IMG/VR virus record: IMGVR_UViG_3300046534_000414
Coordinates: 1 to 22,709 of that record
Direction: 5' to 3' (one strand)
DNA: 22,709 nt
Source of the DNA: a virus
The first letter of the stretch is position 1. Each line of letters opens with the position of its first letter. Below, piece after piece: positions 2,045 to 20,464 of this stretch. The notes below the pieces were generated by a model, which was given only the letters and a program-made list of their open reading frames with translations, ran no database searches and had not been told where the DNA came from. Made by a program: the position numbers and the translations under genes.

Positions 2045-2076
2045 GTTTTCCCTCTGGAAATTGGGTATATAACAGT

Positions 2077-2086
2077 CGCGTCCTGC
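2077..2086 (-). promoter_or_regulatory. Intergenic motif GCAGGACGCG (copy A)
   Basis: The motif lies 34 nt before the ATG of the large polyvalent protein and touches the end of the adjacent inverted repeat. Similar copies lie in three other intergenic gaps. The function is unknown; a late promoter element or regulator site is an inference. Confidence 0.35.
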
Positions 2087-2146
2087 ACTGCCGGTTGATT
2101 ATTGATACACCTTATCGATGCGTTTAATCAAGGATTCCGGCAGTGC
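2085..2146. repeat. Nested inverted repeat / structured intergenic hairpin
   Basis: GCACTGCCGG (2085-2094) is perfectly repeated in inverse at 2137-2146. Directly inside it, TTGATTA (2095-2101) pairs with TAATCAA (2125-2131), leaving a 5-nt bulge. Within that, ATTGATA (2101-2107) can pair with TATCGAT (2113-2119) with one wobble when read as plus-strand RNA; it shares one base with the second stem. The element fills most of the 112-nt gap between two ejection genes. No T-tract follows on either strand, so it is not a standard intrinsic terminator. An RNase III-type processing hairpin or a protein-binding site are possibilities. Confidence 0.8.
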
Positions 2147-2156
2147 TACTTTCCTA

Positions 2157-4100
2157 TCAGTTCCCTAAGCGGAATAGCGGCGCTTCCTGCTGTGCGCCAC
2201 CTCCCCCACTAAGCGTTCCTAAGCTCTGCACACCCTGCATATACTGCTGGATTGCTTGTTCCATTGTGGTCTGGCCCGAAAGGTCTGCGGACATAATGTC
2301 AGAGGCGCCCTTCATCACATCCTGCTGTGTGATCGCGCCCCTTTGTTCAGGCTGGTTGTCAAACAGCATTTCTGCAACCGTGGCTGGCGATACCATCATG
2401 TGGACGTATTTCAAATACTCGTCGGCGGTTGCAAAGGTTTGCTCTGTACGCTCGCCCGTGTCTTTGTTCAAAAGCACGATACGAGCCCCGCCGGGGTTGC
2501 CGTCGGCGTCGTTAAAGAGCCCAGTCGCTTCAAGGTCAACTTCCATGTTTGGGTCAACGTATCCATACTGCTTGAACGCTGAAAGGGCGTGCTCTGCTGC
2601 GGCATCAACATCGCCTGTCATCATGCTGAATGTGGACCTGCCAATGTCTCTCAGTGCGGCCTTACCTTCGCGGGATTCGACCAATTCAATGTAGGCTTGG
2701 GCCTTGTCCATTTCGCCTCGACCAATATAGAATTCAATCGCCTGTGGCACGACAGTTTCATAGTAGCGGTCCACGTATGCTTGCGATCCACGATCTGTCT
2801 GCGCTGCGGTCACGTCTTCCCCAGGTCGCAACCCGTATGACAAGGCGACGTCCCGAGCGATGGCAACGCCTTGTTCTGCGTCGGCCTGAACTGCGGGGAC
2901 TTCTGACGCTGCCGCAGCAGATTCTAGCTTGTTTGTCGCTTCATCGGACTGGTCGCCCTCGGCGGGCGGTGTTTCTGCGTCTTCGGCAGTGGTCTGGCCA
3001 TAGTTCGGGTTGGCCGTGACCCCAGCAACGTAGTCAAGAACGGGGTCTACAACACGGTTAACCGCACTGGCTGCATTAGTTGCCAATTCGCCGGTCTGGC
3101 GAGCTAAGGCGCCAGGTGCGTTAGAAATGGCACTGACCCCCCGTTGCATCAAATTGCCAACATCGCCGGGGGCACCGCCGCTTTCTCCAAAGTCTCTGTT
3201 TCGATCGTAGTCACCGATGGCCGTGATCACGCCTGCCGATCGATTGGCCGCGTCCAGCGCGGATGAACCATAACCGCGCAAACGTTCACCAAATCCCGGA
3301 CCCTGATCTGTCGGCGCGGGAGCTTCCTGAGTCGGCGCGCGCCCCTGTTCGCCAAACGAGCTTGGAAATGTTTGACCAACGGTCGTGTTTGGGTTTTGCG
3401 GGCGCGGCGTGTAAATAGGATCAGAAGCCTGCCTTGGCGCGGCTCCTTGACGGGACGCCTGTTCCAAGCGGTCAAACTGATCAATCGACGCGACTTTATC
3501 TTCATCCGAAAGGGTAGCGTAGACCTGTGTAAGAGTCATACCCCCAGTGTCCATCATTTCACGTATTTGCGCGTCGGTCATGCGGCCTAGCCCTAGTGCT
3601 GAAGGCCGATTCTTCTGTTCCCGCGCATCCTTAAACCGTGACGCGTCCTGCTGGGGCGTCGGGCTGTTTTGCGACACACCAAGCTGCCCAAAGGAAAGAT
3701 CTGGACGTGCTGGGGCTGGCGTATAAGTTTGGGCGGCTGGCTCGGCCCCTGCTGGCGTTTCATTTCCGTAAACTGGGAAGTTGGGGTTCGCCTCGCTTTG
3801 TGGGGGCGGCGTTGCGCCAAGTCTCATGCTCTCTGCCCACGAGGCCTGTGCTTGCCGTTCCTGTTCATCAAGCGCGCCCTGTCGTTCCCGCTCGCCGACT
3901 TGATAGTCGTATTCTTCCACTTGACGTCCGTAATTTCCTTCCGCACGCCGGTCAGCGTTCTGCGCAAGGCCATAGCGACCCTCGTTAATCTCATCCAGAC
4001 GTCCCTGACGCTCACGATCCAACGTGCGATCTTCTTTGCCATCACGCCAATCGCGGCCCTTAAAGAACCCGTCAACGAAACCTGAAACTGCTGCAACCAC
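2157..4100 (-). CDS. Probable ejected internal virion protein, 647 aa
   Basis: The start is GTG with AAGGAG 7 nt upstream. That ribosome site directly follows the stop codon of the preceding gene, so the two are probably translated together. Residues 1-95 are highly charged and likely helical (many R, E, D and Q). Residues about 95-270 are low complexity, rich in Q, P, A and G. The C-terminal 300 residues look helical and acidic. No catalytic motif is visible. The N-terminal pattern GFxxGFxxxRDxxD is shared with the neighbouring 250-aa protein. I know of no precise family. Its size, composition and place between a lysozyme-like ejection protein and the polyvalent protein suggest a DNA-ejection or inner-core protein. 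The product assignment rests on context; the reading frame itself is very secure. Confidence 0.75.
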   Translation of the reverse strand: MVAAVSGFVDGFFKGRDWRDGKEDRTLDRERQGRLDEINEGRYGLAQNADRRAEGNYGRQVEEYDYQVGERERQGALDEQERQAQASWAESMRLGATPPPQSEANPNFPVYGNETPAGAEPAAQTYTPAPARPDLSFGQLGVSQNSPTPQQDASRFKDAREQKNRPSALGLGRMTDAQIREMMDTGGMTLTQVYATLSDEDKVASIDQFDRLEQASRQGAAPRQASDPIYTPRPQNPNTTVGQTFPSSFGEQGRAPTQEAPAPTDQGPGFGERLRGYGSSALDAANRSAGVITAIGDYDRNRDFGESGGAPGDVGNLMQRGVSAISNAPGALARQTGELATNAASAVNRVVDPVLDYVAGVTANPNYGQTTAEDAETPPAEGDQSDEATNKLESAAAASEVPAVQADAEQGVAIARDVALSYGLRPGEDVTAAQTDRGSQAYVDRYYETVVPQAIEFYIGRGEMDKAQAYIELVESREGKAALRDIGRSTFSMMTGDVDAAAEHALSAFKQYGYVDPNMEVDLEATGLFNDADGNPGGARIVLLNKDTGERTEQTFATADEYLKYVHMMVSPATVAEMLFDNQPEQRGAITQQDVMKGASDIMSADLSGQTTMEQAIQQYMQGVQSLGTLSGGGGAQQEAPLFRLGN

Positions 4101-4111
4101 GATTTTTCTCC

Positions 4112-4864
4112 TTAGTTTACGCTGACGCCCAAGGGGCGCGGCGTGAGTTCAGATCCGTTTCGTTCAAAGTTTGCGATCGCGGCATCAAGCTGCGCATCCG
4201 AAACATTTTTAAACCCTTCCCACTCGGCCCGCATGGCGGCCCGCTTGGCGGCTGGCGACGAGGCATTGACCAAACGTTGCCTTGCAAGGTGATTAACCAT
4301 TTGCGTCTGGGTTGCCTCGTTAAATATTGTGTCGTCAGGAAGGTTAAGCTGTTCCTGCGTTGCGCGGGCGGTGCGTCCAACGATTTGGCCAAACCCTGCG
4401 GGTGTAGCGACACGAGCAGGCTGCCCAGACGCCTCAAGCTGTGCCTTTACCCATTGGCCGTATTCACCAGACGGGTTTTGAAACTCGCGCAATTCGGCCA
4501 ATGTCATTGCGGACACGTCAACGCCGTCGAACCGACCACCGCGCTGACTGTGCCCGAATAGTGTGGATGGATCACCTGCGCCCTCGTGCGCGCGAAGAAG
4601 TCCCGCGATGGTGTCGTTATCTCCGCCTTCGTAACTTGCGGGCGCAGCGCGGCCATATCCCGAGCCTCCATTGGTGGACGGCATGGTCGAATTCCCACCG
4701 GCCCCGTCAGATGGTCCAGCCTGCGGTTCTGCGCCCATGCTTTTCATTGCGTCCAGATAGGTATCCATCCGCTTATTGCTCTCTGTGCGCTGCTCTCTGT
4801 CGGCCTTGCGATCACGAGAATTAGCAAAGCCTTCACCAAATCCGGTTAAACCTGACATGCTCAT
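4112..4864 (-). CDS. Internal virion protein with lysozyme/transglycosylase-like domain, 250 aa
   Basis: Residues 1-40 are charged and resemble the start of the next protein. Residues 45-80 form a Gly/Ser/Pro linker. Residues 85-200 look like a lysozyme-like (goose-type/transglycosylase) fold: LLRAHEG with candidate catalytic E94, FGH at 103-105, the 'SAMTLAEL' stretch at 118-125, GFGQIVGRT at 157-165, and F181 before a helix with QMVNHLARQRL. Muramidases of phage particles often show 'MT..E' and 'G.YQI...T' in this order. It probably opens peptidoglycan locally as DNA enters the cell; it need not be a lysis enzyme. The first ATG is used here; a second at 4858 is also possible. No strong ribosome site is seen (GTAGGT only). 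The domain call comes from pattern recognition. Confidence 0.65.
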   Translation of the reverse strand: MSMSGLTGFGEGFANSRDRKADREQRTESNKRMDTYLDAMKSMGAEPQAGPSDGAGGNSTMPSTNGGSGYGRAAPASYEGGDNDTIAGLLRAHEGAGDPSTLFGHSQRGGRFDGVDVSAMTLAELREFQNPSGEYGQWVKAQLEASGQPARVATPAGFGQIVGRTARATQEQLNLPDDTIFNEATQTQMVNHLARQRLVNASSPAAKRAAMRAEWEGFKNVSDAQLDAAIANFERNGSELTPRPLGVSVN

Positions 4865-4886
4865 TTTGATTTACCTACGGCCATGT

Positions 4887-5576
4887 TCAACCCCACGCGC
4901 CAGCAACAGAGCCCAAGGCTTGACCAAAAGCGGCATATTGCGCCTGCTTGGCCTTCCATCCATCCATGCGACCATCAAACTCTTTGCCAAGGATATTAGC
5001 CTGCTGGCCATACCCGCCCATAGCGCCGCTGAACCCAGCCTGTCCCGACGCGTTGGAAAGCCCCATAGACGTGCCGGGGTTTACCGCCATGCCCTTACCC
5101 ATGTTGATTGAGTTGGTCGTCATGGTTTCGGCTTTTGCGTCGTCCTGCATGATGGACTGCCTGCGCGCCATGTTGGACGCGCCCGCAGATGATAGGGCTT
5201 CTGCTGATCCGCGCGCACCGGCCATTGCTGCGTCACGTCCAGAATCCGGCCTTACTCCCATAGATCGAGAACGGCGGTCGTCAGAGTCACGCTGCAAGGC
5301 AAACTGCTGGCGCACATCACCAACGGCCTCGGACGCACGGTTATCAGCGTTCAGGCCTATCTTGGCAGGGTCTCGGGCCGCATCGGCTCTGGCCGCGTAT
5401 GCGCGTTCCCTTGGGACATAATCTTCTTGGTATCGGGTCCGATCCTCGTCGGCCCACCTGTTTGTGACGTTAGCCTGACCGGTCATAAATTCCAGCATGT
5501 CTTGTCCGGTCTGTGCCGAAAGCTTTGCCGCTTCGCCCATTGCTGGGTCTGGTGTTGGTGCTCCGCCGCCGCTCAT
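4887..5576 (-). CDS. Probable small internal virion (ejection) protein, 229 aa
   Basis: The ATG overlaps the stop of the preceding gene by 4 nt (ATGA), with AAGGCGG upstream. The protein is rich in A, G, S, M, Q and R. It begins MSGGGAPTPDP and ends with a Gly/Ala-rich tail (GQALGSVAGAWG). Residues 30-110 are charged and helix-like (DEDRTRYQEDYVPRERAYA). No signal peptide or catalytic motif is seen. From memory, proteins of this size and composition sit just before lysozyme-like and large ejection proteins in several podoviruses and are often called internal virion protein A. It is first of the Gly/Ala-rich ejection set here. The role is inferred from composition and position. Confidence 0.6.
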   Translation of the reverse strand: MSGGGAPTPDPAMGEAAKLSAQTGQDMLEFMTGQANVTNRWADEDRTRYQEDYVPRERAYAARADAARDPAKIGLNADNRASEAVGDVRQQFALQRDSDDRRSRSMGVRPDSGRDAAMAGARGSAEALSSAGASNMARRQSIMQDDAKAETMTTNSINMGKGMAVNPGTSMGLSNASGQAGFSGAMGGYGQQANILGKEFDGRMDGWKAKQAQYAAFGQALGSVAGAWG

Positions 5577-6073
5577 GACAAATCCGCCTTATATTCTTCG
5601 AGTGTTTCGTGGTGGGTGAAGAACCGACGGACATCCATGCTGACCTCACGCATGTAGTCTTGGCCTCGTGTCAGGTAGATCACAAAGGCAATCAGTTCAG
5701 CGTACCAATCACGCAAGACGTATGAAAACACCTTGTCGTTATCGCTGCCTTTTTCCAGTTCATTGGCGTCAAGCCATGCGTTGATACCTGTCACCAAGAT
5801 AGGAACTATCTCGCTGCGGTAATTCACAAGGAACGGGTTGAGTGGCAGGCCAGTCAAGGCGACAAACAAGATGCGCGTCAGGTCGGCCTTGGTGACTTCT
5901 TTGTCTTGGTCCCAAAGGTCGTCAATGACCTCGCAGAAATCAAAAAACTGCAAGATAAACTCAATGGCGTGCCGGTCAACGATCCACTCATTGAGCTTTT
6001 CGTTTCTCATTGCACGCCAATCGCCCGAGTCGAACTCAGGAGAGTTTGTGGGGATAATGTCTTGTGGGGCCAT
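5573..6073 (-). CDS. Conserved phage protein of unknown function, 166 aa
   Basis: CGGAG lies 6 nt before the ATG, and the 3' end overlaps the next gene by 4 nt. The protein is acidic and mostly helical, with hydrophobic stretches (FILQFFDFCEVIDDLW; ELIAFVIYLTRG) that look like a globular core rather than membrane segments. Features are DWRAMRNEKLNEWIVDRHAIEF near residues 18-39 and INAWLDANELEKG at about 97-109. I recall similar uncharacterised proteins next to ejection protein genes in podoviruses. Coupling to the first ejection gene suggests a linked role, for example as an assembly partner. No enzymatic function can be assigned. Confidence 0.6.
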   Translation of the reverse strand: MAPQDIIPTNSPEFDSGDWRAMRNEKLNEWIVDRHAIEFILQFFDFCEVIDDLWDQDKEVTKADLTRILFVALTGLPLNPFLVNYRSEIVPILVTGINAWLDANELEKGSDNDKVFSYVLRDWYAELIAFVIYLTRGQDYMREVSMDVRRFFTHHETLEEYKADLS

Positions 6074-6105
6074 CGGAAACTCCGTTTTGTCCGTTTGATT
6101 GGCCG

Positions 6106-6115
6106 CACGTCCTGC
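6106..6115 (-). promoter_or_regulatory. Intergenic motif GCAGGACGTG (copy B)
   Basis: The motif lies 34 nt before the start of the 166-aa gene that opens the ejection cluster. It is part of a 13-nt stretch (6105-6117) identical to that upstream of the major capsid gene (13751-13763). The function is unknown. Confidence 0.35.
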
Positions 6116-6130
6116 GCGTTTTGTGATTAG

Positions 6131-6544
6131 CTAAGGGTACATTGACATGACAATAGCACCTTCATCCCCTGTTACGCTAGGCCGTTTGCGATATTCAAAC
6201 TGAAAGCCCGCCTTAAGGTAGCTGATTTGTGATTGAATGTTGCTTTGATCTACAGTGGCGACCAAGATCGCAAGGCCAAGTATCCTTGGGTGAAAGGCCA
6301 ATTCTGTGTACGCGCCCACAACATCCTCAGTGATCGGCAAAGTCGATAGATTGAGGATTACAACATCCGCCGCGCTATCTGCAAAGTGCTGAAACACAGC
6401 AATGTAGGACGGATCTGATTCGCCCTCTTTGATTGCACCAAAGGCGATAGCGTCTTTGCACCAAGCGTTGATCCCTGCAAAGTTAAGTCGCATGGCAGAC
6501 TCAAGCATATCGGCTTGGTTGGCTCTAGTTAATTTCAAAGGCAT
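6131..6544 (-). CDS. Possible GNAT-fold phage protein, 137 aa
   Basis: AAAGGGG lies 6 nt before the ATG. The protein alternates helices and strands. Its C-terminal half contains HPRILGLAILVATVDQSN (85-102), SYLKAGFQFEYRKRP (108-122) and a final strand (AIVMSMY). The 'N....YLKAGF' pattern resembles motif B of GCN5-related acetyltransferases, and many phages carry such proteins near structural genes. The typical acetyl-CoA binding signature (Q/RxxGxG/A) is not visible, so it may be a degenerate or structural GNAT fold. It lies between the tail fibre chaperone and the ejection genes. An alternative is a phage protein of unrelated fold. Confidence 0.45.
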   Translation of the reverse strand: MPLKLTRANQADMLESAMRLNFAGINAWCKDAIAFGAIKEGESDPSYIAVFQHFADSAADVVILNLSTLPITEDVVGAYTELAFHPRILGLAILVATVDQSNIQSQISYLKAGFQFEYRKRPSVTGDEGAIVMSMYP

Positions 6545-6562
6545 GGCAGGCCCCTTTCTGGG

Positions 6563-6970
6563 TCAGGTTGGCGGCTGTGGGAATACAACCGATAGTGGGT
6601 CGTCTGTTTGCTCTGTGATGTTCCTTAGGGCTGTTCGATATTCTATCCACTCTTGGCGCTTAGGCCCATCAAGAGGGCTATCTGTTGCCTGCGTCCAATC
6701 ACTTGCGGTTAAAAAGGCGTGTCTCTGGCTTCGCACGCCTTGCCAAGCTAACATATTTTCCCGTTCAGCAATAACAGAAGATGGCTTTTTGACAACTCTT
6801 TTGCTCAGTATGCGATCATTGTCTGGGTCCACCTCCCTTGATTTTGCATGGTACACATGAAGGTCATTAGACCCATTCAACGGACCTTCATCAGGCAGCA
6901 AGCCGTCAGGCGCAGTGACCACTGATACAATTTCACCATTGTTAATGTTGTATATTGCGTACTGCTTCAT
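6563..6970 (-). CDS. Tail fibre assembly chaperone (Phage_tail_APC-like), 135 aa
   Basis: The start overlaps the fibre stop codon by 4 nt (ATGA). Residues 80-118 carry the hallmark of the tail assembly chaperone family (Pfam Phage_tail_APC): VRSQRHAFLTASDWTQ, then a D/P turn, then K..EW..YR.ALR.I. The N-terminal 60 residues form strands (MKQYAIYNINNGEIVSVV). In this family the protein helps fold or trimerise a tail fibre encoded immediately upstream, as here. Close coupling to the 364-aa fibre gene makes that protein its likely client. The family assignment is strong; the client is inferred. Confidence 0.8.
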   Translation of the reverse strand: MKQYAIYNINNGEIVSVVTAPDGLLPDEGPLNGSNDLHVYHAKSREVDPDNDRILSKRVVKKPSSVIAERENMLAWQGVRSQRHAFLTASDWTQATDSPLDGPKRQEWIEYRTALRNITEQTDDPLSVVFPQPPT

Positions 6971-8061
6971 TTGTATCTCGCCAAAAGTTGCAGTGATACT
7001 TGAGCTGTCATTGTGCTGTTTGCACCTATCCAGTTAAAAAGTATTGTTCTGCTGCCGGTAACGGCTGATGCTATCCGTGCAGTTCCAGAAGGTTGATCGT
7101 TGCCAAATCCCATATTAACGCGATAATCAATTTGTGTAGAGCCATCCATTATCTGATAACCCCATTGGAGCGCACCGGCATTATAACCCTGCTTTACGCT
7201 CCAAAAAATATACACATTAGCGAGATTGTTTCCAAGATTTATAGTTGCGGCTGCCGCAGCTTGAAGCGAGCCATTGCCAGTTATTGTGCTTCCTGTAGCA
7301 AAGACTGGGACGGTAATGGCATTGCCTGCAACCTTCAGGGTGTCAACTTGGAGGTCCCCTATACTTGCCCTCGTAACATAGAGGTCTTGGGCGTGAACGC
7401 CTGCTGGGATAAACGCCCCATTGACTGTGCGCCCTGCCGGATAGACTGCGAACGGGGTGTAATTGCCCTGCCCGCTGCTGTTCACAACGCGCAGCGACGA
7501 GTCATTGATGATGAAATCGCTTACTGCTTGGCCTGCAACCAGACTTGATATCAGTCCAAAGCCAGAAATGTGGCCGTTGTTGTTGATCCGAATGCCATAG
7601 GTAGCACTGACGCCATCTATCGAGACAATCAGCGATGAAATGGAGGTTGAATTTCCGTCAAGCGCCGTCTGAAATGTATCAAATTCACCATCCACTTCGG
7701 TCCCAAGCGTCTCGATGCCCAACATGGCTTGATCAAACAGCCTGTTATATTCTTCCAGCAAAGCCTCGGACTCAGTGTCGATCGCTGCAAATTGTGCTGC
7801 AACCTTTGCTCCTATGCTTCCAGGTCCGTTGACCCCGCTCATGGACCCGACTTGCTTTGCAACTTCGACCTTAATGCCTTCAAGGTCTTTGAACCGGACG
7901 GCGTGTTCCAGCTTTTCGCCACGTAGGCCCGCCAAAACCTCCGTTAGATTGATCGTTCGCTCTTCAACGGGGCTGCGTCGGTTGACAGCTTCAGGGGCGA
8001 CGCTACGGCTCGCCTGAGGGACATTGACGCCCTCCCAAGGTGTACTTTCATCTACCATCAT
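6967..8061 (-). CDS. Tail fibre / host-recognition protein with lambda J-like (DUF1983) domain, 364 aa
   Basis: The first ATG of an ATGATG pair overlaps the nozzle gene stop (8058-8061). Residues 30-135 are helix-rich and could form a trimeric coiled-coil shaft. Residues 141-250 resemble the central straight fibre domain found at the C-terminal end of lambda J-like proteins (DUF1983): YGIRINNNGHISGFGL, then SDFIINDSSLRVVN, then PFAVYPAGRTVNGAFI. Residues 250-364 are strand-rich with few charges and probably form the receptor-binding tip. The lack of a long N-terminal J region suggests that only the fibre domain is used, attached to a podovirus nozzle. The chaperone follows directly. The receptor is unknown. 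Confidence 0.7.
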   Translation of the reverse strand: MMVDESTPWEGVNVPQASRSVAPEAVNRRSPVEERTINLTEVLAGLRGEKLEHAVRFKDLEGIKVEVAKQVGSMSGVNGPGSIGAKVAAQFAAIDTESEALLEEYNRLFDQAMLGIETLGTEVDGEFDTFQTALDGNSTSISSLIVSIDGVSATYGIRINNNGHISGFGLISSLVAGQAVSDFIINDSSLRVVNSSGQGNYTPFAVYPAGRTVNGAFIPAGVHAQDLYVTRASIGDLQVDTLKVAGNAITVPVFATGSTITGNGSLQAAAAATINLGNNLANVYIFWSVKQGYNAGALQWGYQIMDGSTQIDYRVNMGFGNDQPSGTARIASAVTGSRTILFNWIGANSTMTAQVSLQLLARYK

Positions 8062-10037: not shown

Positions 10038-10045
10038 AGTTTACC

Positions 10046-10714
10046 TCACATCCAACGTGGTTTTACGCGAATAGGTGCGCGCTGTTGGCCGCGCATGTTC
10101 GATGCAAAGTGCTTGTTGCAAGCATCATCGAACGCGGCCTTGTGCACCCCAGCCATTTGCGGGTCCGTAAAGTCCTGCTTGTTGGTAGACATAATGCGCC
10201 ATAGCGCCCCGTGCGCCAACTTTTCAGCATATTGCGTGACCATAAATTCCGGCAGCACGTTGTATGCGTCTGCAAGGGGGTCTTCTTCGTCCAGACCGAT
10301 CGCTTGGCCATGGCGGGGCTTAAGGAAGCATGAGACGCGAAGGACGCCAGCCTCAAAAGGATACACAGACACGGTGCCGGGCTTAATCTGCGTAATGTAT
10401 TTTGCCGTGCCGGTGTTGGTCTCGCCTGTCAATTCGTCAGGGTCAACGTCCGTGAATTGTGTTGGCGTCAAAACATTGCCGTTCAGCGTGGCCTCTTCAA
10501 ACTCATGGATTGTTGAATTGATCGTGGCCAGATCACATCCATTCTGGCTTGATATCGTTTTTTTGAACACCTGCCGCCAGCACCTTGTTCGCTCACAAAA
10601 CTCGATCACTGCCAGACGAGCTTGAAACTCGGCGTAGGGCAGCGGCACGGTAGGCACTTGGGGCAATATGTAGGGCATCAACTGGGATACGCTGGTAGTC
10701 ATTGAAAAGGACAT
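10046..10714 (-). CDS. Head-to-tail adaptor / tail tubular protein A-like, 222 aa
   Basis: GGAGGG lies before the ATG and overlaps the stop region of the preceding gene. The N-terminus has a helical segment (AEFQARLAVIEFCERTRCWRQVF, about 28-50) and a strand segment follows. The C-terminus has LPEFMVTQYAEKLAHGALWRIMS followed by a K/H-rich helix. Helix-strand-helix proteins of about 200 aa between capsid and nozzle genes are usual for gatekeeper/adaptor rings such as T7 gp11 or P22 gp4. The protein would form a dodecameric ring below the portal. The family name is not certain; an alternative is a head completion protein. Confidence 0.55.
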   Translation of the reverse strand: MSFSMTTSVSQLMPYILPQVPTVPLPYAEFQARLAVIEFCERTRCWRQVFKKTISSQNGCDLATINSTIHEFEEATLNGNVLTPTQFTDVDPDELTGETNTGTAKYITQIKPGTVSVYPFEAGVLRVSCFLKPRHGQAIGLDEEDPLADAYNVLPEFMVTQYAEKLAHGALWRIMSTNKQDFTDPQMAGVHKAAFDDACNKHFASNMRGQQRAPIRVKPRWM

Positions 10715-10717
10715 CGC

Positions 10718-11413: not shown

Positions 11414-11433
11414 GCGGGCTTCTCCGTAGGTAA

Positions 11434-11458
11434 AGAGGCCAGCTTTTTAGGCGGCCTC
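11434..11458 (-). terminator. Possible weak intrinsic terminator overlapping a stop codon
   Basis: On the coding strand GAGGCC and GGCCTC (6 bp) enclose a 12-nt loop that contains the TAA of the 211-codon frame, followed by TTT. The short stem and short T-tract make it weak. Read-through into the adaptor genes is likely. Confidence 0.35.
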
Positions 11459-12028: not shown

Positions 12029-12062
12029 GACAGGTGCCCTTTTGTGATTGCTGGGAAGTATG

Positions 12063-12095
12063 GTTAGCCGCCACATTATCACCTGCGGCGGCTAA
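12063..12095 (-). other. Intergenic hairpin without T-tract
   Basis: TTAGCCGCC (12064-12072) is inverted at 12087-12095, a perfect 9-bp stem with a 14-nt loop. It lies in the 79-nt gap between the 147-aa and 193-aa genes. No T-run follows on the coding strand. It could slow RNA decay or act as a poor terminator. Confidence 0.5.
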
Positions 12096-12107
12096 TCATA
12101 GCGAAGT

Positions 12108-12551: not shown

Positions 12552-12582
12552 GGGATGTGTCTCCGGTTCTGGCGTTAATGGG

Positions 12583-12610
12583 ATAAAGAGGCGCCGTTAT
12601 GGCGCCCCTT
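12583..12610 (-). terminator. Intrinsic terminator after the major capsid gene
   Basis: On the coding strand AGGGGCGCC, loop ATAAC and GGCGCCTCT form a 9-bp stem with one G-U pair, followed by TTATCCC. It starts 8 nt after the capsid stop codon. The T-tract is modest, so partial read-through is likely. Confidence 0.7.
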
Positions 12611-12617
12611 AAACTGC

Positions 12618-13712
12618 TCAGTTCGGGTTAGTGCAGGACGTATCCAGCGCACACACGCCAAAGTCGAGGTCGTTGAACCGCGTCTTCTTCATGCCTGCAA
12701 TCAAGCCGCAGTAAATCTCGATCTGGTTGTCTGCGTCGGTCATTTTCTCGACCCACGACATGCGTGATCCGTTACCGCCGGAACCGTATGCAACCACGCC
12801 AGCCTGACGACCAAGCAAGAGAGCACGGCCCGCAGCAACGTCGCTACCAGCACCGTAATCGCTGTACCGGCGCACTGATTCATGCTCATGCAACACAAGG
12901 TTGCTAATCATGCCAATGCCGCCTTTGACGATCGGAGAGTTGCGACCTTCGGATGTGGCAAGTGCTTGGCTGATCTTGGACCATGACAGGTCGCCAGTTT
13001 CGACGCGCATATCATAAGCCTGAAATGGCGACATGAGCACGATGAAACGTTTACCGCCTTCAACATTGACGGGTGACATGCGAACCACGTTAGGGTTCAC
13101 AGCGTTCATCATTGTTGGTTTAACAGCGACACGCTCAAGAAACGCGACGTTCATCTTGTCGCCAGCCGTAAGTGTGGCCTTTGACGTTGCCGAACCCGCG
13201 TACAGGATGTGATCCGTGTCTGGAGCTTTGATCGGGTTGTTAGCAAACGCTTTGTCAAAAACAGCATCTTGGTTGATCGCGCTGAGTGAGGCGTCACCAG
13301 ACAAGTAAACGAAGAAACCTTCGTCAAGCCACTGCGCGACGTATTCGGATGTACGGTCACGGGCGATGCGGCGCAGGTTGTGCAGTGTGCGCTTGCGCGA
13401 CATACGGCCAGCTGCGGATGCACCTTTACGGGCTTGGTCGATCTTCACTTCGTCTGTGTAGAAAGTCAGGCTTTCGGCGGAACCTTCCACGCGATCATCG
13501 CCCAGTGTCATGCCGCCGCGAAGGCGCATGGACAAATCAAACTGAATCGTGTCGCCAGCTTCATCTTCGAGTTCAACCTTGCGCTCGACAATGTTGTTCT
13601 CGCCTTTACCGATGAATTTGGACCAGTATGATTGCTTTTCCGTGTCTGTTGCCAGTGATGTGGCCCAGCGGCGTACCGCTTTTGGGTCGTTGACACCTAC
13701 TACAGTTTGCAT
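12618..13712 (-). CDS. Major capsid protein, N4-gp56 family, 364 aa
   Basis: AAGGAG lies 8 nt before the ATG, the strongest ribosome site in the window. The protein matches the N4-gp56/DUF4043 capsid family: AVRRWATSL..., SYWSKFIGKGENNIVERKVEL (residues 29-49), GDTIQFDLSMRLRGG, then GDDRVEGSAESLTFYTDEVKIDQARKG, and later a stretch with YCGLIAG and the C-terminal FGVCALDTSC. The family has the HK97 fold and is common in podoviruses. About 360-400 aa is normal, so the gene is complete. It has its own leader (with the 13-nt motif) and a terminator directly after it, as expected for the most abundant virion protein. Family assignment is confident. Confidence 0.9.
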   Translation of the reverse strand: MQTVVGVNDPKAVRRWATSLATDTEKQSYWSKFIGKGENNIVERKVELEDEAGDTIQFDLSMRLRGGMTLGDDRVEGSAESLTFYTDEVKIDQARKGASAAGRMSRKRTLHNLRRIARDRTSEYVAQWLDEGFFVYLSGDASLSAINQDAVFDKAFANNPIKAPDTDHILYAGSATSKATLTAGDKMNVAFLERVAVKPTMMNAVNPNVVRMSPVNVEGGKRFIVLMSPFQAYDMRVETGDLSWSKISQALATSEGRNSPIVKGGIGMISNLVLHEHESVRRYSDYGAGSDVAAGRALLLGRQAGVVAYGSGGNGSRMSWVEKMTDADNQIEIYCGLIAGMKKTRFNDLDFGVCALDTSCTNPN

Positions 13713-13751
13713 TGAACGTCTCCTTTGGGATCAAAATAGAATTGACCAAGG

Positions 13752-13761
13752 CACGTCCTGC
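13752..13761 (-). promoter_or_regulatory. Intergenic motif GCAGGACGTG upstream of the capsid gene (copy C)
   Basis: It lies in the 92-nt leader of the major capsid gene, 41 nt before the ATG. The 13 nt at 13751-13763 are identical to 6105-6117. I see no convincing sigma70 -35/-10 pair in this leader. Confidence 0.4.
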
Positions 13762-13804
13762 GCTTTGTATGTGAACGAGGTTTACCACACATTCGATAGT
13801 GTTA

Positions 13805-13993
13805 TCAACCTTCTTGGAAAGGCGCGCAAATTACTACACCTGCGCGCCTTACAATCGTCTTACTTCGGGGCGCATCTACAACAATACTGAGCACGCCCTC
13901 GCCGGAACGAACCATGCGGATCGTCGTATCATCGCCCACAAGGATCTCGTGTTGGATATGATTATCCTTGGACGTTAATTTGGTTTTCCACAT
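13805..13993 (-). CDS. Small hypothetical protein, 62 aa
   Basis: AGGA lies 8 nt before the ATG. The protein (MWKTKLTSKDNHIQHEILVG...) looks strand-rich with a basic patch (RSKTIVRRAG). It has one cysteine and no membrane segment. It lies between a 94-aa unknown gene and the capsid leader. Its last codons overlap a 10-bp hairpin at 13819-13850, so the 3' end may have a double role. I recognise no family. The ribosome site and tight packing with the previous gene support it being real. Confidence 0.55.
   Translation of the reverse strand: MWKTKLTSKDNHIQHEILVGDDTTIRMVRSGEGVLSIVVDAPRSKTIVRRAGVVICAPFQEG
13819..13850 (-). terminator. Hairpin inside the 3' end of the 62-aa gene, before the capsid leader
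   Basis: AAGGCGCGCA and TGCGCGCCTT form a perfect 10-bp stem with a 12-nt loop. On the coding strand it is followed by TCCAAG, so the T-tract is short. It may attenuate transcription from the scaffold side or protect the capsid mRNA end. Confidence 0.5.
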
Positions 13994-14003
13994 GGGGTCG
14001 GTC

Positions 14004-14288
14004 CTATTCCTTGGTGATCAAAGAGTATCCGCCTTCGAAGGCGTCAGCAGGTGAAAATGAAGTGTATCCACCTTCATACTGAACCCAATACCCACCGACC
14101 TTTGGCGAGTGCTTGCGCACAAACTCATCATCCAGTGCGATTGGGGCGAACCCGTCTTCTTCTGGCACCATCATGAGCAATCCGTAGCTTTCCTGCTCGG
14201 GCGACTCGTTGTGGTACAGTTTTTTAATCTTCAAAGCCCAAACCTTCTTGTGGCTTTGATATTGGGGTAGTTGGCGTTCTACTGGCAT
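14004..14288 (-). CDS. Small conserved phage protein of unknown function, 94 aa
   Basis: AGGA lies 8 nt before the ATG. It starts with MPVERQLPQYQSHKKVWALKIKKLYH, a strand-like segment. It then has PEEDGFAPIALDDEFVRKHSP and a final VGGYWVQYEGGYTSFSPADAFEGGYSLI (residues 64-91). As I recall, small proteins with the 'VGGY.V.YEDGY.S.SPA.AFE.GY' ending are frequent in phages near capsid or lysis genes, without known function. It lies between the scaffold and the capsid. A virion accessory role is possible but unproven. Confidence 0.65.
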   Translation of the reverse strand: MPVERQLPQYQSHKKVWALKIKKLYHNESPEQESYGLLMMVPEEDGFAPIALDDEFVRKHSPKVGGYWVQYEGGYTSFSPADAFEGGYSLITKE

Positions 14289-14304
14289 ATTATAGGTCCT
14301 ATCC

Positions 14305-15285
14305 TTACACTTCTTCCAAGTAGCGGTCTTGCTGCTCTTCAGTCATGCTTGCGAACGATTTTTCTGCTCCGAGCGGATCTCGCATGATCTGCTTGTCTAC
14401 GGCGGCAAAGTGACTGTCTTCGACATCGGCCCCTGTGTCCGAATTGAAGTCGGCAAGGGTCTGCGGTGCCTTGGGCTTTTCGCCGGTCTTCACTTCCAGC
14501 TTATCCTCTGGCCCCTTGTCGACCTTGGCATCGGCCTTGGGCGTCATGGCAAGCGCCTTGCCGTTGCGGGCCTCGTACTCAGCGGAATAAAGGCTGTGAG
14601 CCATTTTGATCTGCCCATCGCGACTTAGATCGGCGTAGGCTTTGTTGCCTGTGACCTCGCGCAACTGACGGTCCCACCCTGGCTTGTGTTCATCGTTCCA
14701 AAGGTCCGGCGCGGTGGCCTTGTATGCTTCTAGGCGTCCGTACCAGTGCTTTTGTTGGTCCGTTGCCGCCTGATCAGCGACGGATGCGGCGGCAGTGATG
14801 GCGGCTTGTGCCCGAGCTTGCTCTGAAATGATGAAATTCTGTTGATCGCCGTATTCTTCCTGCGTCAAATCACCTTGGTCGTATTTGTCCAGCAATTCCT
14901 TTAGCTGCTCTTTGGACTTGGTGACGTATGCCTCGGCCTCGGTGGTGTCGGGGATTTCAGGCATTTTGGGGTCGGCCACGTCCTCAACGGGTGCGACAAC
15001 CGGTGCGACAACCGGTGCGACAACCGGTGCGGGCTCTGATTCCGCCGCCGGTGCGGGCTCGGCGGCAGTCTGCTCCGCAATGTCGGGCTCATCGCCGTCT
15101 GTTACCAATGGCAGGGCGTCTGCTGGCGTGGCCTCGGCAGGGTCAGGGGTTGGTGTTACGATGGGATCGTCGCCAGTAGACAAAAGCTCAATCTCTTGGT
15201 CAGTAAACCCGCCTTCTTTCAGGCTTTCGATTGTGAACTCTTCTGGGATGTGGTCGTAATCTGTTGTTTCAATGCGTAAAGTCAT
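14305..15285 (-). CDS. Probable scaffold protein, 326 aa
   Basis: AAAGGA lies 6 nt before the ATG. The protein is very acidic. Residues 40-110 are a D/P/A/E-rich disordered region with a tandem APVV repeat (86-100). Residues 110-180 are predicted coiled coil (VTKSKEQLKELLDKYDQGDLTQEEY, then A/Q-rich). A Trp-containing segment (KHWYGRLEAYKATAPDLW) follows, and the C-terminus is a charged helix (TEEQQDRYLEEV). Low complexity, coiled coil, acidic N-terminus and position between portal and major capsid are typical for head scaffolds. The sequence does not identify a named family; the role is inferred from composition and synteny. Confidence 0.65.
   Translation of the reverse strand: MTLRIETTDYDHIPEEFTIESLKEGGFTDQEIELLSTGDDPIVTPTPDPAEATPADALPLVTDGDEPDIAEQTAAEPAPAAESEPAPVVAPVVAPVVAPVEDVADPKMPEIPDTTEAEAYVTKSKEQLKELLDKYDQGDLTQEEYGDQQNFIISEQARAQAAITAAASVADQAATDQQKHWYGRLEAYKATAPDLWNDEHKPGWDRQLREVTGNKAYADLSRDGQIKMAHSLYSAEYEARNGKALAMTPKADAKVDKGPEDKLEVKTGEKPKAPQTLADFNSDTGADVEDSHFAAVDKQIMRDPLGAEKSFASMTEEQQDRYLEEV
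14990..15025. repeat. Three perfect 12-bp tandem repeats inside the scaffold gene
   Basis: The unit GGTGCGACAACC occurs three times without change and continues as a partial fourth copy. It encodes the APVV repeat of the disordered linker. The unit length keeps the frame, so copy number could vary without harm. Confidence 0.9.
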
Positions 15286-15296
15286 GGTTTTTCCTT

Positions 15297-17777
15297 TCAG
15301 GCAGTTTCAGTGGGCTGGTCTTTTAGACCCTTGGCCCGCTTGGTAATGTCATTCATGTCAGCAGCGTGCTTTTCGGCGGCCTTGGCTGTCTCGGCTTTGT
15401 GCTGTGCGTTGATTTGCGCCACTGCAATCTTGGCCTGAGCGTCGATTTCAGCGCGGCGTTCTTCGCTGTTGGCTGTGATGCGTGTTTTTTCGAGTTCAAC
15501 GGCACGATACGCCGCGTCGGCGCGCTGATCTGTCTCTGCGAGCTTCTGCTCATACCTTGCAGTCTGCTTCAACGCCTCTTCGCGCAGCTTCATTAGTTCT
15601 TGCTCGAACGCCTGCTGCTGCTCCATGAACCGGCGTTCCATGTCTGCGGACTGCTGGGCTTGTTGATCGCCCTGACCCGCACCTCCCATTTCCGCTTGCA
15701 GCTCGGCCATGATTTTCTGAGCTTCAGCTTGGGCCTTCTGGGCCTTTGCCTGCGTCTCCATCGCATCGGCTTCCTTGCCTGCAATCTCGGCCTCTGCGGC
15801 TCGTTGCTGCATCTGGGCCTGTGCCGTCTCTTGCTCTTGGCGCTGCTGTTCCTCGGGCGTCGGGTTGTTTGGGTCCGCGTCTGGGTCTTCCTGCCCTGTG
15901 ACCTGCCGGATACGCTTCACGAGTTCATCACGCTTCGGCACATCGAGTGCTTCAACGATCAGGTCCATAATACCCACCACCATCTGCGGTGCCGTGGCCG
16001 ACAACTTGCCAGCAAGGTCGAGCAACTGTTCAGCTTGGGCCTGACGTGCCGTCGCGCGCCAATCCTCTTCACTGATAACAAAGTCTGCCTTAAATTCGGC
16101 AATCGCGTTTTCTGGATCGCCGTTGTTAATCGAAACAAAGTCGGCATCGCCGCGGCTGTCTGTGATCCTGAATTGCTCTTCTTCGGTGTAGTATTGCTCG
16201 ATCAGCACCAAAGACTTCTCGCCGTGGATAGATCGGGATAAGCGCAGGTTGTCGAAAAACAGCGACGTGGCAAGCTGGCCTTGATCCTGACGTGCCAAGA
16301 TCGCCTTGCCGCTGGTCGCGTTGGTCTTGCGGCCCAGGTTCTCGTCTGTAACGCCGGATACCTGTTGGATCATCTGCGCATCGCGTGACATCATTTCGAC
16401 ATGAGCGGCGGCGATGTCTCGGTCGGCTTCGATGCTAGGGGCGGGCTTGCCTTCCTTGTAGACAATTACCGCATCGGGGCGCGCGGCCTCGTTGCGCAAC
16501 TCTTCAATGTCGTCAACGGAACCCTCGGAAACAAGGACACGCGTGGTGGATAGGTGGTGCAATGCCTTGGCTGCACGTCTGTTCAGGTCGCGCTGGATGT
16601 CGCGCAGTCCACGGATAAGCCCATATGGCATACCGTCTCTTGCGCGGCGATAACCCCAGACTGGCGTGAACGGGAATCGGTTGTGGCGATACGGGCTGCG
16701 GCGAACGTCCAGCAATCCGGTATCTGTCATGAGAGCACAGTGGATCACCTGTCGCGGGCGCGTGGAAAGCAACGCTATGCCCTCGTTGAATTCTTGAACG
16801 TGGCCAACACTGTATGGGTCAAACAATTCGCCGTTAAACTGCCCACCCTTCATGACTGCGGCGTCTGGCACCATCTTCTTGAACCAACACTCGACAACGC
16901 GCACGCGGTCACGGTTTGTCACTGAATTGCTGCGGCTTCCGCCGGAATAACTGTGGAAGTGCTCAATTTCCTGAAAATCCATAGCGTCGTCGCCAAGATC
17001 GTCGGTCACATACTGACCGTAACCTGACTGATTGGCCGCTCGATCAATCATGCCCGCCCTGTGGCTCCAAAGACCAATTGCCGTGTCAACGTCCAGCCAC
17101 TTGACGCGCATCTGGTATCGCGCGTCTTCGAGGTCATAGCGGACAGCCGTGCTGTCGTAGAGCATGGATCGCCAGTTTTCGTTGCGCATAATGACGTTTG
17201 ACGTGTCGTCGTCGTTGCCCTGTGCCGCTTCGAGCCATCCCACCCCTGCCTTGACGGCTGATTGGAAGGCGGCGGCGGTCTCGGCCTCAAAGTGGCTGCC
17301 ATCGCTGACGTGTTTGAGCAACTGGGTCTTGCGCTCGGCTGACTTCACACCGCGTTCGTTTCGGGAAAGGATACGATAATCCATCGTTGACCGGCGCTGG
17401 CTGCCCAGAACCCAGTTTACCGAGGTGTGGATCATGTTGAACACCATCGGCGACTGGCCACGATCCGCCAGTATTTCGAGTTCTTCCTCTGAAAACTGGA
17501 TATGATCGTAGAAGTCTTCGTCCATCGCCATTTGGACACGGTTTTCGGCCTGCCGGTCCAGTTCGCGGACGTAATGCCCCATCAGGTTTCGATGTAGGTT
17601 GTCACCTTGCTGGCTGTCGAGCCACGAGGTCTTGTTCTTCAGGTTGCGCTTAGGATCAGGCGTATCGTTTGGCAGGAATGTATCACCTGGCGCGTTCTTG
17701 CGCCCTGACTTATAGACAATGCTGCCAGATACTTCATCCCCGGACGGTCCGTCCCGCTTTTCGTCTGCACTAAACAT
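15297..17777 (-). CDS. Portal protein, P22/N4-like, 826 aa
   Basis: GGAG lies 9 nt before the ATG; the start overlaps the preceding gene by 8 nt. The N-terminal 110 residues are charged. PMVFNMIHTSVNWVLGSQRRS (110-130) and PYGLIRGLRDIQRDLNRRAAKALHHLS (384-410) are typical of the wing and stem regions of large podovirus portals (P22_portal family). Residues about 650-826 are a long Q/A/E/K-rich coiled coil (EEQQRQEQETAQAQ...). P22 portal (725 aa) has a C-terminal barrel; here the extension is longer and ends in K/A helices. As a dodecamer it forms the DNA channel and binds TerL and the adaptor. Family assignment is good. Confidence 0.85.
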   Translation of the reverse strand: MFSADEKRDGPSGDEVSGSIVYKSGRKNAPGDTFLPNDTPDPKRNLKNKTSWLDSQQGDNLHRNLMGHYVRELDRQAENRVQMAMDEDFYDHIQFSEEELEILADRGQSPMVFNMIHTSVNWVLGSQRRSTMDYRILSRNERGVKSAERKTQLLKHVSDGSHFEAETAAAFQSAVKAGVGWLEAAQGNDDDTSNVIMRNENWRSMLYDSTAVRYDLEDARYQMRVKWLDVDTAIGLWSHRAGMIDRAANQSGYGQYVTDDLGDDAMDFQEIEHFHSYSGGSRSNSVTNRDRVRVVECWFKKMVPDAAVMKGGQFNGELFDPYSVGHVQEFNEGIALLSTRPRQVIHCALMTDTGLLDVRRSPYRHNRFPFTPVWGYRRARDGMPYGLIRGLRDIQRDLNRRAAKALHHLSTTRVLVSEGSVDDIEELRNEAARPDAVIVYKEGKPAPSIEADRDIAAAHVEMMSRDAQMIQQVSGVTDENLGRKTNATSGKAILARQDQGQLATSLFFDNLRLSRSIHGEKSLVLIEQYYTEEEQFRITDSRGDADFVSINNGDPENAIAEFKADFVISEEDWRATARQAQAEQLLDLAGKLSATAPQMVVGIMDLIVEALDVPKRDELVKRIRQVTGQEDPDADPNNPTPEEQQRQEQETAQAQMQQRAAEAEIAGKEADAMETQAKAQKAQAEAQKIMAELQAEMGGAGQGDQQAQQSADMERRFMEQQQAFEQELMKLREEALKQTARYEQKLAETDQRADAAYRAVELEKTRITANSEERRAEIDAQAKIAVAQINAQHKAETAKAAEKHAADMNDITKRAKGLKDQPTETA

Positions 17778-18234
17778 TGTTCTTCATCTCCGTCTCGCTG
17801 AGAACTGACCCTGACAGACGGTCTTTGATTATGATGTCGCCGATGGCGTAATCGCCTATAAATGGCGGCTTTGGTGGCATGTTGTAGAGGTCTCGTAGGT
17901 TTTCGTTGATCGCGCTTAGGATGTTGATGAATGTCCCTGATAGCATCCCTGTGTCAATCCATTCCGTGATGGATATTTTGGTGTGCAATCGATCGCCTAC
18001 CCTCGGGTCTTCGGATACAGCAAATCTCCACGCATTGTCCAAATAGATCACAACGGGCATTGTATGCTTGGCGGAGACTGTTCGGCCCGCGTCAACCAAG
18101 ACCATGCACGGCTCTTGGCGGCCCTTGTCGTTTACGTGTGTGAACCATGTGAGCATGACAGTAATGCCATATTTCGTGCGCCAGTCTCCGTGGCAATTTC
18201 CAAGGTTGAGCGCGGTGCGTCTGATATTTTTCAT
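17770..18234 (-). CDS. Unknown protein between terL and portal, 154 aa
   Basis: The ATG overlaps the terL stop by 4 nt (18231-18234) and the 3' end overlaps the portal start by 8 nt, so all three are translationally coupled. The protein is mixed: YGITVMLTWFTHVNDKG (22-38), VLVDAGRTVSAKHTMPVVIYLDNAWRFAV (45-73), then TEWIDTGMLSGTFINILSAINENLRDLYNMPP. No signal peptide or classical motif is seen. Possible roles include a packaging cofactor or a portal assembly helper. I recognise no family. Confidence 0.65.
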   Translation of the reverse strand: MKNIRRTALNLGNCHGDWRTKYGITVMLTWFTHVNDKGRQEPCMVLVDAGRTVSAKHTMPVVIYLDNAWRFAVSEDPRVGDRLHTKISITEWIDTGMLSGTFINILSAINENLRDLYNMPPKPPFIGDYAIGDIIIKDRLSGSVLSETEMKNNV

Positions 18235-19850
18235 GCTGTCATTCCTGTCGCGCGGCGACGGTTCCGGTTCCTGAGTGAAGTTGGTTGCCCTGCTGGCGTG
18301 TATCCTTGCGATTTCTGGCGTAGGGCATCACAACAATGGCTATGCTCGTCGTGTCGTGGCTGATCGCTCCACCATTGGATCGTGTTGTTCCAGCCTCGGG
18401 TATAGGCTTCGATGTGGGGAATTCCTTCTTTGCACCCCACCTCGTCAAACTCGTATGTATCAAACTCTTGGTTCGTGAGGTCAATCCCGTGCTGAACGCT
18501 CTTGATCCTTGGAACTATGCGCCAATCCCATGTGGGCCTGATCTTTCGCAGCTGCATGATGGGGCTGGTTATGCTTTCAACATCCTGCCTTGCGTGTGAA
18601 CCATCATGCGGCAGGTAGTGCGCGCCCCAGACGCATCCTTGGGCTTCAAGCCACAAGATGAAGTGCAGATATCCCTTGCTGCTTTCCTCGTAGAAATGGG
18701 TCCAACGGTCCATGGCTCCAATGCGCTGGTGCAACCAGATCGCGGTGTGATCGGTCGCGCCCATGTCCCAGAACGAATTGACAGGGACGTGTTTGACCAT
18801 CGGGTAATTACCGATGCGTTGCGTTGCTCGTGCTCGGCCCATTGCAACAGCGTAGTATTTGCCTTCGTTGGAGGCCTGCCAGCACTCGTCGGGTGTGGAC
18901 GGGTACTCTCGCCACATCAGATCGGGTGTGTTGGCAAAGTCTGCCTCGCGTTTATTCACGTACCAAGCGCGTTGGTCGAGGTCCAAGACGCACTCTTGCT
19001 CAATCTCGATACTGTCGAAGTATTCGTGCTCTTTCGCGCTGATCCGCACCCCATCGGGATTGATCCGGTATCCGCTGTCCTGCCACCACGCAAAGAAGTG
19101 AAACCGATAGTCGGTCGGTAGGATCTTGGACTTGGATTTGCTCTTGGCTTCAGCGCGTTGGCTCATGTCGTAAAATGCGCCGGCCTTGCCCTCTGCCGTC
19201 GATTCAATGAACACCAAGCCGTTCTTGGGCACACCTTGCAGCGAGCCGGTGGTTATCTCGACGGCCTTGTCTGGGTATTTGGCAGCGATCTTGCCCATTT
19301 CGCTGATGTGGAGGAAGTGCGGCGTGCCACCTCGCGCGGATGATGTCACTTCGATTGATGAACCGTTAGAGAATACCATCTGGGTCTGACTGCGCTCGGT
19401 GCACGGCACTGCCTCGCGGACGGCGGCAGGCATGTTGTCATAAGCGAAACACACCTTTTTGCGGTAGAGCTTGGTCGCCGCATCCTTGGTGTGTGCTATC
19501 ACCACCACTTCCTGATCTTTGTTGAACATGGCGTGGTCGAGCGCCATGATCTCTATCAGCGTTGAAAACCCCATCTGCCGAGCTTTGAGGATGATGTTGC
19601 GCTCGTTGAGGTTGGCCAAGAGAAGCCTTTGCCCCTCGTTTGGTCGGAATGGGACGGCAACGTCTGGGATGTCGTCGGCCTCGTCGTCCCCCTTTGTCGT
19701 GATCTTGTAGAGCGCGCCTGAGAAGATGCGCCAATTCCACGATCCGAGCGCAGTCATAAACTCATCGTCGTCCTGCGGTATGAAGGCTATCTCGATCTTG
19801 CCACGCTCATCAAAGGCCAGGCGCGCTGCTATGGTTGCAGCATCGCTCAC
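18231..19850 (-). CDS. terL: Terminase large subunit, 539 aa
   Basis: The start is GTG, overlapping the terS stop (GTGA, 19847-19850). The ATPase part has a variant Walker A, LKARQMGFST (89-98 region), and a Walker B-like strand HFLHISEMG (178-186) with E184 as candidate catalytic glutamate. FIESTAEG (214-221) looks like the coupling motif. The nuclease part shows WDMGATDHTAIW (361-372) with D362, HD at 415-416, and HCCDALR (505-511) with D508. These are the three acidic positions expected in the RNase H-like domain. The motor packages DNA through the portal. Length and motif order are complete; no key residue appears lost. Confidence 0.95.
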   Translation of the reverse strand: MSDAATIAARLAFDERGKIEIAFIPQDDDEFMTALGSWNWRIFSGALYKITTKGDDEADDIPDVAVPFRPNEGQRLLLANLNERNIILKARQMGFSTLIEIMALDHAMFNKDQEVVVIAHTKDAATKLYRKKVCFAYDNMPAAVREAVPCTERSQTQMVFSNGSSIEVTSSARGGTPHFLHISEMGKIAAKYPDKAVEITTGSLQGVPKNGLVFIESTAEGKAGAFYDMSQRAEAKSKSKSKILPTDYRFHFFAWWQDSGYRINPDGVRISAKEHEYFDSIEIEQECVLDLDQRAWYVNKREADFANTPDLMWREYPSTPDECWQASNEGKYYAVAMGRARATQRIGNYPMVKHVPVNSFWDMGATDHTAIWLHQRIGAMDRWTHFYEESSKGYLHFILWLEAQGCVWGAHYLPHDGSHARQDVESITSPIMQLRKIRPTWDWRIVPRIKSVQHGIDLTNQEFDTYEFDEVGCKEGIPHIEAYTRGWNNTIQWWSDQPRHDEHSHCCDALRQKSQGYTPAGQPTSLRNRNRRRATGMTA

Positions 19851-20449
19851 TTATCGTCGTCCTGCGCAGTGTCTCGCTTGATCGGTGCGCGTGACATGCG
19901 CGACTGGATGTCAGATATGGCGTCAGCAAAGGCTCCGGCGGCCTTCTCGGTCTCTTTGTCGTAAACGCCGGTGTATCGGGCGAGCTTTTCTAGGGCGGCC
20001 AGCTTGTCGTACAGCTTGATCTTCGTCTTGCGTACTTGAGAGAAGACTGGCTTGCCCTCGGCGTCGACACCGGTCTTTTCCAGAATGGTCTCCGTGGATG
20101 TTTCTGACAGCGCGTCCAGATCATCGTCGGGTGTGTCTGTGAGGTTGATCTGTGGCTGGCCTTCTGCGTCCACGCTCACAAAGTTGCGCATCGAGGCGAA
20201 TGCGACCTTGGCCATTTCCGCGACAACACGAGCTTGCGTAACGCCCTGAACCTCTTTGATCGCGGTGAATCGCCTTTGGACTTCGAGTTGGACTTTGGGT
20301 TTGGCAAGGAATTTGCACGCTTCCTCGTTTGCCCTGTTATGCGAGTATCCAGCCTTACGCCATGCGTCGGCCGCATTGAAGCTGATCAGGTAGAAACCTA
20401 TGAAAAGGTCCTGCTTGGGCGTCAGTTTCGTGTGCTCGTCATGTGCCAA
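19847..20449 (-). CDS. terS: Terminase small subunit, 200 aa
   Basis: Residues 8-60 match the Terminase_2 small subunit family: LTPKQDLFIGFYLISFNAADAWRKAGYS, then a helix and FLAKPKVQLEVQRRF, a helix-turn-helix that binds the packaging site. Later come VVAEMAKVAFASMRNFV and the C-terminal KLAALEKLARYTGVYDKE, also typical. The start is a TTG at 20449; no ATG or GTG lies in frame before it, since a TGA is six codons upstream. AGGA 9 nt before the TTG could be the ribosome site and is part of motif copy D. It is followed directly by terL. The TTG choice is an inference. Confidence 0.88.
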   Translation of the reverse strand: MAHDEHTKLTPKQDLFIGFYLISFNAADAWRKAGYSHNRANEEACKFLAKPKVQLEVQRRFTAIKEVQGVTQARVVAEMAKVAFASMRNFVSVDAEGQPQINLTDTPDDDLDALSETSTETILEKTGVDAEGKPVFSQVRKTKIKLYDKLAALEKLARYTGVYDKETEKAAGAFADAISDIQSRMSRAPIKRDTAQDDDK

Positions 20450-20454
20450 AATAC

Positions 20455-20464
20455 CGCGTCCTGC
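20455..20464 (-). promoter_or_regulatory. Intergenic motif GCAGGACGCG upstream of terS (copy D)
   Basis: The core lies 7 nt before the TTG start of terS, and its AGGA may also serve as the ribosome site. It is closer to the start than the other three copies. Confidence 0.3.

Follow-up and report, generated by a model that had tools for sequence, protein, structure and literature searches.

A conserved leader hairpin of late genes in Bcep22-like phages: a candidate RNA switch with a CsrA-family protein as its possible reader

In RNA phages of the MS2 type, the coat protein operator is a small hairpin near the start codon, which is read by a phage protein and serves in repression. In tailed phages, the timing of late genes is usually explained by promoters together with antitermination. 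Within the CsrA family, E. coli CsrA was reported to activate ymdA by opening a hairpin that sequesters the Shine-Dalgarno (SD) sequence (PMC7492729), and RsmE binds AGGAX pentaloops (PMC4005645). The CsrA-like proteins of Bcep22-like phages were described as morons without a phage target (PMC9144972, in its text on CsrA-like regulators); the leader element reported below is absent from that text. No description of the element was found in the literature searched, megablast of the window defined below against phage records gave nothing, and Rfam returned no family at gathering score over 114 kb, with a chance match alone (E=3.4) on the capsid leader.

The window, i.e. the whole stretch of DNA analysed, is a virus record of 22.7 kb. 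Its source is a Bcep22-like podovirus, as assigned from the capsid (phrog_334), portal (phrog_156) and internal virion protein (phrog_511) genes, and the closest phage matches lie in the Lessievirus, Parlovirus and Ittyvirus groups. A sequence-only reading of the window had drawn attention to the motif GCAGGACGYG upstream of the genes for a polyvalent protein, the ejection cluster, the capsid and the small terminase subunit (terS). Exact search gave five matches, all on the minus (coding) strand (2077-2086, 3642-3651, 6106-6115, 13752-13761 and 20455-20464), whereas shuffled sequence gave 0.14 on average and never more than one, and the four intergenic positions agreed exactly with those given by that reading. 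Its other counts were reproduced as well: the motif lies in four of the six gaps longer than 50 nt (112, 57, 66, 92, 215 and 137 nt), the distance from core to start codon is 34, 34 and 41 nt, and 7 nt at terS, the copies at 6106 and 13752 have 13 identical bases in common (the 13-mer GCGCAGGACGTGC), and the single further copy, at 3642, lies within a gene. This intragenic copy is unmatched by the covariance model and was rejected as an element, being regarded as a chance coding copy. The 8-base core GCAGGACG has nine copies in the window, several of them within genes. The four intergenic copies differ from one another; those at 6106 and 13752 are full, that at 2077 is a bulged variant and that before terS is partial (Table 1).

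Table 1. Positions in the window of the motif sites, of the genes that follow them and of the candidate regulator
Feature	Positions	Strand	Basis or remark
ANGA hairpin GCGC-AGGAC-GTGC, capsid 5' UTR	13751..13763	-	CM R1 26.5 bits, E=1.8e-4; training set of CM R1 includes this site
Alternative RBS-sequestering stem (predicted), capsid leader	13714..13758	-	MFE fold; family-wide swap and shuffle tests
Major capsid gene (phrog_334), proposed chief target of the element	12618..13712	-	
ANGA hairpin GCGC-AGGAC-GTGC	6105..6117	-	CM R1 23.1 bits, E=0.0011; outside the training set
166-aa gene (phrog_21390), opens the ejection cluster, 3' of the 6106 element	5573..6073	-	
Variant hairpin CAGTGC-AGGAC-GCGACTG, bulged A	2073..2090	-	upstream of the 2-2044 gene
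Large virion/polyvalent protein (phrog_6958), N-terminal part, cut by contig end	2..2044	-	
Motif copy before terS, partial element	20455..20464	-	stem of only 2-3 bp
Terminase small subunit gene (phrog_51)	19847..20449	-	
Divergent CsrA/RsmE-family protein, 62 aa, proposed trans-acting regulator	13805..13993	-	directly upstream of the capsid leader

Comparison with relatives showed that GCAGGACGYG is part of a conserved, predicted 5'-UTR RNA hairpin, GCGC-ANGA(N)-GTGC, which precedes the capsid gene in some 70 phages and prophages of the Bcep22-like type. Among 74 distinct capsid leaders collected from IMG/VR, bacterial genomes and phage records, the hairpin lies 20-47 nt before the capsid ATG in all but a few distant ones, and a Microcystis phage also carries it 5' of its capsid gene. 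The motif hence withstood the test of conservation in relatives that had been proposed for it. Hairpin columns C7, A10, G12, A13 and G17 are invariant, and the stem varies by paired changes (GCAT/GTGC, GCAC/GTGT, ACGC/GTGT, GCGT/ATGC and GCGC/GCGC). Over the five-pair stem, 21 cells are altered on both sides; the covariation score of 0.211, against 0.154 for shuffled data, was reached in none of 500 shuffles. The loop contains GGA in the window and in about 60% of the capsid leaders, and a definition of the site by GGA only was rejected because many orthologous loops, including most of the remainder, are ATGA or AAGA. By sequence, the AGGAC loop of the window on its C-G pair falls in the same class as the A-GGA-X pentaloops of RsmZ SL3 and SL4 (PMC4005645). 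RsmZ, however, is an sRNA that sequesters protein, whereas the phage hairpin lies in mRNA leaders, and the ATGA or AAGA of many phage relatives sets them apart from the GGA of RsmZ.

The other sites in the window were compared in the same way. The 6105 hairpin is kept in a relative (L006/L025). The variant at 2073, which is paired as CAGTGC/GCG-A-CTG, scores below the threshold of CM R1 in the window; before the homologue of its downstream gene in a relative (L026), the sequence is GGCGGCGC-AGGAT-GTG-A-CCGCC, in which the bulged A is retained and the stem is different. Giant DarB-like polyvalent genes have the element in front of them in POI1126 and L031, which parallels the site before the polyvalent gene of the window. 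The terS copy was likewise unmatched by CM R1 in the window search; its AGGA can serve as a putative SD sequence for the TTG start, and GCAGGAYGC is kept before terS in L006/L024 and L007. In the 215-nt gap upstream of terS, a terminator-like hairpin (GGCCGGACGTTAGTGGCGTCCGGCC, 20608-20632, minus strand) was noted by eye, and two small ORFs upstream of terS (21063-21374 and 20665-21066, minus strand), which gave weak winged-helix/MarR-like matches below the cut-off, are possible late regulators. A terminator-like sequence, GGGGCGCCATAACGGCGCCTCTTT, was also seen directly 3' of the capsid gene (about 12588-12608, minus strand) and could make the capsid message its own unit.

Second sites were searched for with a covariance model built from the capsid hairpins alone and with a regular expression. 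The element was found 19-31 nt before lysis genes (endolysins of GH108 and GH19, and a holin) and before genes for tail fibres, giant DarB-like proteins, an internal virion protein and a virion protein with an S74 domain; phrog_511 and phrog_8003 are among the families represented. In POI1126, all five such sites lie 60 nt or less upstream of annotated starts, positions that make up 3.2% of the strand. The lysis gene divergent from the capsid gene has its own copy of the element in several phages. The spacer between the capsid gene and the divergent endolysin gene in L100 and L097 holds two copies back to back, about 60 nt apart; therefore, both divergent promoters must fit that spacer.

The loop of the hairpin and its 3' arm can pair with the segment between SD and AUG, and this pairing encloses the SD together with a variable hairpin. 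In the MFE fold of the capsid leader of the window, the hairpin segment GGACGT is paired with ACGTTC directly 5' of the capsid ATG, and the stem encloses a second hairpin and the SD AAGGAG. Duplex energies were computed on isolated leaders, 39 of them non-redundant capsid leaders and 17 non-capsid. The capsid leaders' own duplex had a mean of -13.3 kcal/mol, compared with -9.5 when the arms were swapped between phages (none of 20,000 permutations was as strong) and -7.8 when the 3' segment was shuffled (0/300); the corresponding values for the 17 non-capsid leaders were -15.1 and, on shuffling, -8.7 kcal/mol (0/300). At the 6106 site of the window the competing stem is weak (-5.5 kcal/mol). 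When the hairpin was enforced, at a predicted median cost of 5.4 kcal/mol, the predicted accessibility of the ribosome-binding site (RBS) rose from 0.40 to 0.64 on average and went up in 34 of the 39 leaders. The existence of two mutually exclusive leader states, the hairpin and an RBS-hiding stem, i.e. an RNA switch, is hence strongly supported, and the predicted folds show the leader structure over the RBS that is looked for in a CsrA target.

The protein encoded beside the capsid gene matches Pfam CsrA below the cut-off of 27 bits (23.2 bits, E=7e-5), DC1 gp46 passes this cut-off with 39 bits, and a profile of 40 orthologues (A3) matches RsmE 2jpp at E=3.7e-13, which places the family with CsrA/RsmE by sequence. 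For the AlphaFold model of the window protein (pLDDT 79.7), the top 14 Foldseek matches are all CsrA/Rsm proteins; the best probability is 0.97, but the best E is 0.23 with a TM of about 0.5, and none has E<=0.001. The CsrA-like regulators of Bcep22, BcepIL02, DC1, JC1 and Parlo belong to the same protein family and have the same position upstream of the capsid gene. The equivalent of the RNA-contacting Arg44 is present in the window protein (R49) and in many relatives, and is replaced in many others. Loop base 2 is correlated with the R44-equivalent residue (LR 19.8, p=5e-4, for a relation noticed before it was tested and on one tree), which is suggestive of co-evolution; loop base 2 also pairs with the 3' arm, which could be the source of the correlation instead. 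A role of this ORF as a capsid cement protein was considered and rejected, the GP4 cement protein having 157 aa and an Ig-like fold (PMC9698820). In JC1, CsrA was found in virions by one peptide in mass spectrometry (PMC9144972), which allows another role for the CsrA-like protein.

Of the element carriers for which enough sequence is available, nearly all have a CsrA-like gene. As it usually lies just before the capsid gene, co-inheritance explains much of this co-occurrence. The element carriers L056, L090 and L104 have no CsrA-like match, and their records are fragments. In L097, L100 and L101, the CsrA-like gene is unlinked from the capsid gene and the element is still present. The distant controls were other capsid relatives, with the Stx phages among distant relatives left out; ten of these relatives have neither the element nor, except for PA8, a protein of the CsrA-like family. 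The record of Pseudomonas phage PA8 (L115) contains two CsrA-family proteins (W01:27053-27190 and 10108-10245), and no ANGA element was found before its capsid gene.

Comparison of leaders and genomes thus shows a predicted 5'-UTR element that is conserved and covaries, recurs at late genes, competes with a putative RBS-sequestering stem and co-occurs with a CsrA-family gene. We propose that late phage messages begin with a cis-acting RNA element, of which the motif would be the core. The short hairpin GCGC-ANGA(N)-GTGC would form in state A of this element; in state B, its loop and 3' arm would pair with the SD-AUG segment, and the resulting stem would conceal the RBS. Binding of the ANGA loop by the phage's divergent CsrA/RsmE-family protein would hold state A and free the RBS, by which the capsid, internal virion, tail, polyvalent and lysis genes would be switched on jointly at translation; the bound protein may also protect the mRNA 5' end. 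Both the binding of the element by the CsrA-like protein and its effect, activation and not repression, are inferred. The model as a whole, with RNA switch, CsrA-like reader and activation of late translation, is held with slightly more belief than doubt. Against it stands the fact that about 40% of the capsid loops are ATGA or AAGA, without the GGA needed by canonical CsrA. The proposed element is like the MS2-type operator in that a small hairpin near the start codon would control translation through a (candidate) phage protein; it is unlike it in protein fold, phage type and loop, and the MS2-type operator represses. It is closer to the ymdA leader of E. coli (PMC7492729), since in both the SD is hidden by a leader stem that a CsrA-family protein bound upstream would open. 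Unlike ymdA, the phage element has a phage-encoded, divergent candidate regulator and an ANGA(N) loop, and a single element is repeated at a number of late genes.

The motif had at first been suggested to be a late promoter element or a regulator site. The second part of this suggestion stands, in that relatives keep a common regulatory site where late modules begin; the first does not. A DNA-level promoter element or operator would agree with the intergenic placement and with the promoter-like hexamers close by: 10 of 39 capsid leaders and 10 of 15 leaders of other genes have a TATAAT-like -10 hexamer that starts 15-25 nt before the hairpin, compared with 1.6 and 0.7, respectively, in shuffles. 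The motif itself, however, supplies neither a -10 nor a -35 hexamer; it follows the -10 and is part of the transcribed leader, 19-47 nt upstream of the start codons. As it also covaries within the hairpin and with the pre-AUG segment, which is unexpected of a DNA promoter, it was rejected as a promoter element, and a DNA-level function is considered very improbable. From the position of the -10 hexamers, a promoter probably adjoins the motif rather than being in it, and the hairpin is probably close to the mRNA 5' end; a sigma-70 promoter scan of the window found no excess. Upstream of the capsid hairpins of L042, L043, L049, L062, L076 and L091, inverted repeats like GTTTGCAAAACGCAAAC were seen around the presumed -35, and these could serve a late regulator as operator. 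A boxB-like or put-like antitermination signal at the start of each late transcript would account for sites that head many late transcripts and for a stem of 4-6 bp with a loop of 4-5 nt directly after promoter-like sequence, boxB being of similar size. By inspection, nothing is conserved directly upstream of the hairpin, where boxA would lie, and antitermination leaves unexplained both the pairing to the pre-AUG segment and the 19-31 nt spacing to start codons; this explanation, too, is regarded as highly unlikely.

Two further explanations accept the RNA element and differ over its reader or its effect. The element may be a real switch, or a stabiliser of the mRNA 5' end, that is read by another factor, with the CsrA-like gene just a neighbour; the host ribosome or an RNase, the capsid protein, another phage protein and temperature are the candidates, and jointly they are judged unlikely. 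The linkage of csrA-like and capsid genes would be expected on this account, the probable position of the hairpin, a few nt at most from the 5' end, is in line with it, and the loss of the R44 equivalent in many of the phage proteins favours it as well. Yet the element is kept where the csrA-like gene is unlinked, phages without the CsrA-like protein family are also without the element, and the invariant loop suggests a specific binder. It is also doubtful that the CsrA-like protein acts on the same switch as a repressor, which would bridge the hairpin loop and the GGA of the SD and delay late proteins. Many leaders do have GGA in both the upstream loop and the SD, the usual layout of CsrA repression, and CsrA mostly represses (PMC7492729). 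Because the conserved hairpin competes with the RBS-hiding stem, its holding should instead expose the RBS, and loops without GGA are common.

For Bcep22-like phages across several bacterial phyla, the activation model would imply a private post-transcriptional late regulon, in which a CsrA-family reader, whose loop specificity would have drifted from GGA to NGA, acts through a hairpin switch at the 5' terminus of almost all late messages and sets the time at which capsid, tail and lysis genes are translated; this wider picture is tentative and given a little less than an even chance. Late messages that share one conserved 5'-UTR switch, probably read by a phage CsrA-family protein, would form a late regulon controlled at translation. 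If true, this would provide a function for phage csrA genes, so far classed as morons or as modulators of the host, and the protein/RNA pairs of these phages would be a natural series in which to study changing CsrA specificity.
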